Part shown: piece after piece, positions 22,101-25,100 of the stretch
How the letters are laid out: each line of letters opens with the position of its first letter
Numbering within the stretch: position 1 is the stretch's first letter
Source of the DNA: Hirundichthys speculiger
Taxonomy: Eukaryota; Chordata; Actinopteri; Beloniformes; Exocoetidae
Assembly: GCA_018398805.1 (NCBI GenBank)
Contig: JAGFBZ010000737.1
Coordinates: forward strand, 186,001-250,000
Length of the DNA: 64,000 nucleotides
Direction: 5' to 3'
Translations under genes and position numbers: made by a program
The notes under the pieces: generated by a model
Seen by the model: only the letters and a program-made list of their open reading frames with translations
What the model was told of the DNA's origin: nothing
Database searches by the model: none

Positions 22101-25100
22101 TCACAGCCAGTCATGCTGGTCTGTGTAAATGATGTAAAAACAATATTTGGAATTTTAAAGCCTTAAAGCTTTAGTCCAGTTACTCTATTTAGAGGTAGAT
22201 CTCCTTTAAATCCTATTGGATTGATCAGGATCACCCTTTTTAAGTCACTATCCAGATGTCAGGTTTCCATTCAGTCTGTTACAACCCATTCATAGCATTA
22301 ATCGCACTGTTACCATCTGCAGTTGACACCTGTGTAACCGTATCACTAATCTCTGAGATATTTAAGGTTTGAACTTTCTCAATATGTTCATGGAAGTTGT
22401 CTGGTTTCTCTATGTACAAGTTTCTTCCACACAAACTGTTACTTGTCCCTGAACTAACCAAGCAGCTTGCCAACCTTCTCAGAGGGACAGTATCAATTCA
22501 GTTTCCAAATGTATCCATGTATCCATATTGTCCCTAATTGACTGTTTGGATCACGTATCGAAAGCCACAAAAAAAAAAAAAACTTGAGATGCTATACTTC
22601 AGTGATAGAATAGAATAGATAGATACAAGTCTGTGTATCTACAGAAGCCGTCCTCTGTAGGATCTTAAAGCAGATAGATGCACCTGATGATTGCTGATGT
22701 GTTGCAGAAAATATCCATTTACAGATGAGATAGCTGCAGACATAACTGAAGGGATGTTGGCTCTTTAAGAATCTTTAAGCATGATGATGCCTTATAGTGA
22801 AGAGGAAGGTGATTAAGATGAATGTTTTCAGGTTTTGATACAGAGGGCCTGCCAACAGCAGTGTGGCCAGGAGGAGAGACTGAGGCGCTGACCAGGATAG
22901 AGCGCCATCTGGAGAGGAAGGTCAGCACTACACCCCCTGTTTTCAGAACTAACATGACCAAAAGATCATCAGACTACCTCCAAAGTTATAGTATATAAAC
23001 TATTAATGTTCCAGTTACAGAGATTTAAAATGTATTCCTTTTAAATAAACAAAACTTTATCTGAAGAATCATCTAAATTCTTCAAATCTCTTCAGAATGG
23101 CTCGTTTTTTTTAACCGAGCACTGCAATAAATGAAAAAAAAAAGACCTTGACAGTCAAATGTTTCTTTATTACCAAAATGATTCAGACCTTTGTTACAGG
23201 TGATGTTCTAAACACATGTACAAAGGCAGTATTGGTTATCAACCAACATTTTAAAAAACTTATCCTTACAGTATATTCATTAATTAACTTCATTGTCAGA
23301 CTCTTTGAATCTAACTCTAATATGCTATTTTTTTCTTCCCTGTCTTGATTCTCTTATCGTTCTTTTTTCCAGGCATGGGTGGCTAATTTTGAGCGTCCCA
23401 GGATGAATGCAAACTCGCTCCTGGCGAGTCCGACAGGCCTCAGCCCTTACCTGCGCTTTGGTTGCCTGTCCTGTCGCCTCTTCTACTTCAAGCTCACTGA
23501 CCTGTACCGCAAGGTTAGCTAACAGCAGTTCCCGGGTAACTCGTTTAGAGCAGCACAGCTCACTGACCTGTACCGCAAGGTTAGCTAACAGCAGTTCCAC
23601 GGTAACTGGTTTAGAGCAGCACAGCTCACTGACCTGTACCGCAAGGTTAGCTAACAGCAGTTCCCGGGTAACTCGTTTAGAGCAGCACAGCTCACTGACC
23701 TGTACCGCAAGGTTAGCTAACAGCAGTTCCACGGTAACTGGTTTAGAGCAGCACAGCTCACTGACCTGTACCGCAAGGTTAGCTAACAGCAGTTCCAGGG
23801 TAACTGGTTTAGAGCAGCACAGCTCACTGACCTGTACCGCAAGGTTAGCTAACAGCAGTTCCAGGGTAACTGGTTTAGAGCAGCACAGCTCACTGACCTG
23901 TACCGCAAGGTTAGCTAACAGCAGTTCCACGGTAACTTGTTTAAAGCAGCACAGCTCACTGACCTGTACCGCAAGGTTAGCTAACAGCAGTTCCACGGTA
24001 ACTCTTTTAGAGCAGCACAGCTCACTGACCTGTACCGCAAGGTTATCTAACAGCAGTTCCACGGTAACTTGTTTAAAGCAGCACAGCTCACTGACCTGTA
24101 CCGCAAGGTTAGCTAACAGCAGTTCCACAGTAACTTGTTTAAAGCAGCACAGCTCACTGACCTGTACCGCAAGGTTAGCTAACAGCAGTTCCACGGTAAC
24201 TCGTTTAGAGCAGCACAGCTCACTGACCTGTACCGCAAGGTTAGCTAACAGCAGTTCCACGGTAACTCTTTTAGAGCAGCACAGCTCACTGACCTGTACC
24301 GCAAGGTTATCTAACAGCAGTTCCACGGTAACTTGTTTAAAGCAGCACAGCTCACTGACCTGTACCGCAAGGTTAGCTAACAGCAGTTCCAGGGTAACTG
24401 GTTTAGAGCAGCACAGCTCACTGACCTGTACCGCAAGGTTAGCTAACAGCAGTTCCACAGTAACTTGTTTAAAGCAGCACAGCTCACTGACCTGTACCGC
24501 AAGGTTAGCTAACAGCAGTTCCAGGGTAACTGGTTTAGAGCAGCACAGCTCACTGACCTGTACCGCAAGGTTAGCTAACAGCAGTTCCAGGGTAACTCGT
24601 TTAGAGCAGCACTGATTCACTTCAGCCGTTTTCAGAGCGAGACCCGTAATGTCAATGGTTCAAGTCCCACTGATCACTGTTCTGGTAATGTTTCTCATGC
24701 TTCATTCATTCATGTGAAAGTCAGGTTGTTGTTTTTTTTTTTTTTTTTAGTCTTCACTAAGTCACAATTTTCTCGCATCTGTGAGGATTTAACAGGCAGC
24801 ACAGAGGATTTTTTAGCATATTTGGTTATTTTACAGGTGGTGGAAGTCACTTTTACACCACTGTCTGAAACTTCCTTTTATTTGGCCTCCTCCATCTTTA
24901 CTTTCCCGTCATCTTCTTTGCCTGTGCTGTCAGGTCTACTGTAGCTCTGTGAGCTAGTTTCATTGTTGTCGATGTGTGTTACTTGTACCAAATGAAGTGT
25001 AGTTGTCTGTCAGGGTCGGGATCAGAACTACTGTGAGGCATGGATGATCACAGCAGCTAGACAACACTTCATAAAAGTTAAGGTTACAGTTAAATATTCC

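Follow-up and report, generated by a model that had tools for sequence, protein, structure and literature searches.

The locus described here raises the question of how a gene is spliced when the donor site of one of its exons has been multiplied in tandem. In the window, the whole 64-kb stretch of Hirundichthys speculiger DNA that was analysed, TRF detects a minisatellite at positions 23491-24612 of the forward strand, with a period of 66 bp, 17.0 copies and a score of 2027. The coordinates, period and copy number are exactly those of the original prediction. A 25-base core around the donor, GACCTGTACCGCAAGGTTAGCTAAC, has 17 matches in the window (15 exact and two with one mismatch) and none in 100 shuffles. 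The array is real in the assembly, far beyond chance. The first 23 bases of the repeat unit are exonic, because exon 6 of the host gene occupies positions 23373-23513, and copy 1 overlaps the final 23 bases of that exon. The unit does open, as had been proposed, with the 23 coding bases that end exon 6, followed by the donor. The array spans an exon boundary and its unit contains the exon's own donor, as in ABCA7 and IFI6.

The host gene has 13 coding exons (4027-35963, forward strand), modelled from reading frame and splice sites, which amount to 645 codons without the final stop. Exon 6 is 141 nt long with phase 0/0, and exon 7 (26052-26363), which follows the acceptor tatttag|GTGAAA, has 312 nt, or 104 codons in frame. 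The gene has the exon series 109-143-185-89-141 followed by 312 nt, as expected for cry3a/cry1ba; the series of five is described as common to most Cry1 and Cry2 genes (PMC4558521). Among the best 120 of 4765 homologs, percomorph fish come first (Lates japonicus 98%, Stegastes partitus 97%), and the identity is 98% to cry3a of Oreochromis niloticus compared with 85-87% to the five sequences named cryptochrome-1b that were used. In a tree of 27 hand-chosen sequences, the window protein falls into a fork of 15 with a support of 100/98. This fork includes all nine of the sequences labelled cry3 or zebrafish cryptochrome 2a and six unlabelled ones, the window protein among them, and the cry1a and cry1b sequences lie outside it. 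The name cry1b, under which the gene was first reported, is therefore wrong. The zebrafish gene zcry2a was renamed cry1ba by Liu et al. 2015 (PMC4558521). Homology and tree indicate that the host gene is teleost cry3a, equivalent to cry1ba and to the old zebrafish cry2a, cry3a presumably being the later name for cry1ba to judge from the tree and the renaming. Reporter assays show that zebrafish Cry1ba is a repressor of Clock:Bmal (PMC4558521). No report of a repeat in the cry3a gene appeared among the open-licence papers listed, as judged by titles and the openings of abstracts.

The copies of the unit are similar but, contrary to the original prediction, not identical. Copy-by-copy alignment gives 59 invariant columns out of 66, the variable columns being 28, 43, 44, 45, 52, 53 and 58. 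The 17 copies belong to nine sequence types, which follow each other in the order ABABCCDEFGHEFCGCI. Two copies differ on average by 2.5 bases (3.9%) and at most by five. None of the seven variable columns falls within the 23 exonic positions (p 0.041) or within the first 27 positions (p 0.020). Since the copies share a history, this conservation is at most a hint that the exonic part of the unit is constrained. The type string has two repeated dimers, which is not significant evidence of higher-order structure (p 0.14 against shuffles). Open frames of 402 amino acids (forward strand, 23407-24615) and 444 amino acids (reverse strand, 23325-24659) run through the array because 66 is 3 x 22 and these frames have no stop. 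They were not taken as genes; a gene finder could misread them as repeat proteins.

The first donor, AAG|GTTAGC at 23511-23519 of the forward strand, is located by the gene model, the copy alignment and the donor score, and was used in the mRNA of the retrocopy described below; it is the ancestral one. It is followed at a spacing of 66 bp by 16 further copies (23577-24575), of which 14 have the same nonamer and two, copies 9 and 13 with nonamers at 24039 and 24303, read AAG|GTTATC, so that 15 of the 17 copies retain AAG|GTTAGC. Scored with a frequency table, the first donor reaches 6.9, which is similar to the exon 2 and exon 5 donors; the same value applies to all 15 unaltered nonamers and the two altered ones score 3.4. 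The match in predicted score to these two donors bears out the proposal that the repeated donor is a realistic one. The calculated energy of the duplex between the true donor and U1 is -5.6 kcal/mol, the nine donors of the gene spanning -5.0 to -11.4.

Besides the 23 exonic bases and the donor, each unit contains a second donor-like site (23533-24597, forward strand), which reads xxG|GTAACT in 15 of the 17 copies and ACA|GTAACT in two. By the same table it scores 6.3-6.5 in the 15 copies, close to the real donor, and 3.3 in the other two. A 10-base palindrome, GTTAGCTAAC, starts at the donor GT in 15 of the 17 copies. Outside the array, two GT sites of intron 6 score above 6.9 on this table (9.5 at 25501 and 7.1 at 25709). 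The intron therefore has candidate decoys that are free of the repeat, which argues against the array having any special power.

At 23499-23520, and in every other copy, the end of the exon and the donor can pair into a hairpin of 7 bp, which covers the donor. In the predicted fold of the array, CUGACCU pairs with AGGUUAG and would hide the donor. This hairpin is not evidence of regulation: when 13 of the last 14 codons of exon 6 were recoded synonymously at random 500 times, 28.6% of the recodings were equally stable and 20.6% left the donor equally inaccessible.

The consequence of bypassing the first donor is set by the reading frame. There are 275 codons up to the end of exon 6, and the first nine bases of the intron encode V-S-stop, the stop being a TAA at 23520-23522 of the forward strand that is identified by the gene model and the copy alignment. 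Any later donor would therefore give the same product, and translation of the messages from donors 2, 3 and 17 confirms that each ends in K-V-S-stop after 277 residues. K-V-S-stop had been expected after every donor, but copies 9 and 13, taken by themselves, read K-V-I-stop. The Pfam FAD domain occupies residues 288-486 of the window protein, so that the truncated product, whose length of about 277 residues had been foreseen, would be without it. The extended exon would run on past the stop for 57 nt (donor 2) to 1047 nt (donor 17), and more junctions follow downstream. Under the common 50-55 nt rule of thumb, messages from later donors would be expected to undergo nonsense-mediated decay (NMD), and they remain the NMD candidates that they had been taken for.

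The array was found at one place in the assembly. A search of the assembly (1,042,571,336 bases in 3002 contigs) for the repeat unit gave 17 matches among the best candidates scored, all of them in the array, and hence one candidate place. The exon 6 peptide is found at six places, namely the window, C1330, C482, C985, C2458 and C988. At C1330 and C482 it is identical to that of the window over 47 residues, with 123 and 119 of 141 DNA bases in common, respectively; C985 and C2458 carry more distant relatives. The introns after the two paralogous exons start with gcaagtttg (C1330) and gtacaaatg (C482), which differ from the window. TRF analysis of these two 3.1-kb loci shows that the array is absent, with one 14-bp repeat of 2.1 copies at C1330 and none at C482. 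Because the unit was found at a single place and is missing from two paralogs with an identical peptide, the array appears to be recent in cry3a and not an old shared device. At C1330 (1112289-1112429, reverse strand), the boundary after exon 6 reads AAG|GCAAGT and resembles the donor of a GC-AG intron.

The sixth place, C988, holds an intronless and decayed piece of cry3a (region 1533300-1543200, about 4580-5133, reverse complement). It corresponds to coding bases 407-966, with 506 of 562 positions identical (90%) and 10 gaps, and starts in the final bases of exon 3, includes exons 4-6 and ends within exon 7. The junction of exons 4 and 5 shows a gap of seven bases. Those of exons 5 and 6 and of exons 6 and 7 are exact, with donor 1 as the end of exon 6, and exon 6 has two in-frame stops. 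This piece is a processed retrocopy, a single one, and records splicing at the first donor in the past. Both the retrocopy and the window gene encode NNARFDK, in which the changed position is P in all 12 homologs compared. Since the retrocopy has the change, it arose after it, in the lineage of this fish or in the clade that holds it. The retrocopy differs from the gene by 10%, compared with the 3.9% mean difference among the array copies, which suggests that it may predate the array. It is therefore no test of present splicing.

The rest of the window has another repeat and transposon remains. A 141-bp unit is present in three copies, 84% alike, at 52638-53066. Pieces of a Mariner/Tc1-type transposase lie in two frames at 41921-42998 (reverse strand), with DDE_3, Sleeping Beauty HTH and Tc3-type HTH domains. 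A hAT dimerisation domain at 46786-47607 (reverse strand) and a BED zinc finger at 45619-45969 (forward strand) are likewise transposon remains, and a zf-RVT match at 59723-60055 (reverse strand) is a remnant of the reverse transcriptase region of a retrotransposon. There were no Rfam matches in the window at gathering thresholds. The core of the unit had no matches in collections of viral and prokaryote contigs, as expected for fish DNA.

The architecture has precedents, since donor-containing minisatellites are already described in two human genes. The VNTR in intron 18 of ABCA7 has a 25-bp unit beginning at the donor of exon 18 and is present in 12 to 427 units (De Roeck et al. 2018, PMC5954066). 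As in cry3a, the array starts at the exon's donor and each unit repeats it; splicing from the donor of the next unit leads to a premature stop, by a frameshift in ABCA7, and would do so in cry3a. The reported frequency of 2 +/- 1%, read here as that of this event, is unaffected by VNTR length, whereas longer VNTRs are associated with more exon 19 skipping and lower expression (PMC5954066). The ABCA7 unit is counted from the GT and includes no exonic bases, in contrast to the 66-bp cry3a unit with its 23. Unit numbers and RNA effects have been measured in people for ABCA7, whereas the cry3a array is known from the sequence of one assembly. In the IFI6 (6-16) minisatellite, two downstream repeat units are said to act as donors (PMC4526556, citing Turri et al. 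1995). IFI6 thus resembles cry3a in that a minisatellite supplies several donors, which in cry3a are candidates, but its alternatives encode protein isoforms, whereas those of cry3a would all meet the same stop at once. In hTERT, exons 7 and 8 are skipped only when a block of repeats in intron 6 is present (PMC8150890). These repeats are also intronic and affect splicing of the following exons, but as far as that account goes their units are not described as repeating an exon donor. In intron gain by tandem genomic duplication, a duplicated AGGT-containing segment offers new possible splice sites (PMC3443670), as the cry3a units may do; in that process the duplicated segment is exonic and gives rise to a new intron, whereas in cry3a an existing boundary has been multiplied. 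The donor-repeating architecture is therefore known from human genes, and in ABCA7, the best measured of them, use of the later donor does not depend on length.

The array is probably a young and mostly tolerated passenger, likely to vary in length, with the first donor dominant and slight leakage to later ones. In a percomorph cry3a, a stretch across the junction of exon 6 and intron 6 would have been duplicated in tandem and would have grown to 17 copies by slippage or unequal exchange. Splicing would still take place mainly at the first donor, because this donor is paired across a 141-nt exon with an acceptor and enhancers and the later copies carry 23 exonic bases. A later donor, most likely the second, might be used occasionally; every such message would have its stop two codons past exon 6 and would be expected to be destroyed by NMD, and the array would cost a little productive mRNA. 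The position of the first donor at the end of a 141-nt exon that belongs to a conserved series supports this reading, as does, by analogy, the length-independent use of the second-unit donor at about 2% in ABCA7. The restriction of the unit to one place found in the assembly and the retrocopy's join of donor 1 to exon 7, a record of past splicing, also favour it. A modest loss of cry3a dose should be tolerable, since several fish lineages have lost the gene altogether (PMC10298351; preprint PMC12154703). The leakage could nevertheless be larger, because the donor is middling (6.9, with T at +3) and its nonamer recurs unchanged in 14 later copies; the lack of variation in the exonic columns also counts slightly against a mere passenger.

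A considerably less probable alternative is that the length of the array alters inclusion of exon 7 or total expression while the repeat donors are little used, as in ABCA7, where exon skipping and expression follow length (PMC5954066). The requirement for the hTERT repeats in exon 7/8 skipping (PMC8150890) points the same way. Exon 7 of cry3a, which encodes part of the FAD domain, could be skipped with the frame kept because it has 312 nt. However, the repeat sequence is a different one and the array is 1.4 kb away from exon 7.

The original proposal is unlikely: the more copies there are, the more the later donors would draw splicing away from the first, with NMD clearing the unproductive messages and array length setting the output of cry3a. 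In its favour are the 29 donor-like sites (14 + 15) that score 6.3-6.9 besides the true donor, the outcome common to all of them and the retention of 15 of the 17 nonamers. Exon definition favours the first donor, however, and as far as the comparison reached the array is seen in a single species. Retention of the repeat unit in ABCA7 is, moreover, independent of length (PMC5954066). The extended form of this idea is slightly more doubtful still: a copy-number rheostat in a clock repressor gene, in which about 29 decoys oppose one productive donor and differences in length from fish to fish set cry3a dose and clock timing. Unless the extra donors prove to be used in RNA, a control switch is less likely than a tolerated array.

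That a misassembly created the copy number or the entire expansion is improbable: arrays of 1.1 kb are easily mis-sized, but the nine copy types are intermingled without any break in the 66-bp register, and the contig is continuous over 548,311 bases. Least credible by far is a variable number of 21-nt in-frame microexons (LTDLYRK) framed by an AG and the donor of one unit; CACAG|CTCACTGACCTGTACCGCAAG|GTT and a CTAAC branch-site-like motif are readable in the unit, but the pyrimidine content before the AG is 0.47, against 0.47-0.88 (median 0.71) at nine real acceptors, the T content is 0.24 against 0.29-0.65, and a second LTDLY[RK]K occurs in none of the 120 listed homologs (best 120 of 4765), a weak test as these are annotated proteins of other species.

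Arrays in which an exon's donor is repeated are rare and offer a natural test of spliceosomal choice among nearly identical sites at growing distances. In cry3a the total of wrong choices would be readable from one stop-containing product, because every wrong donor has the same consequence. The host gene is a repressor-type cryptochrome, and the human relative of its array, the ABCA7 VNTR, is a disease risk factor. If the length of the array varies in this species, the locus could serve as an animal case; otherwise it would be one more example of a known architecture.
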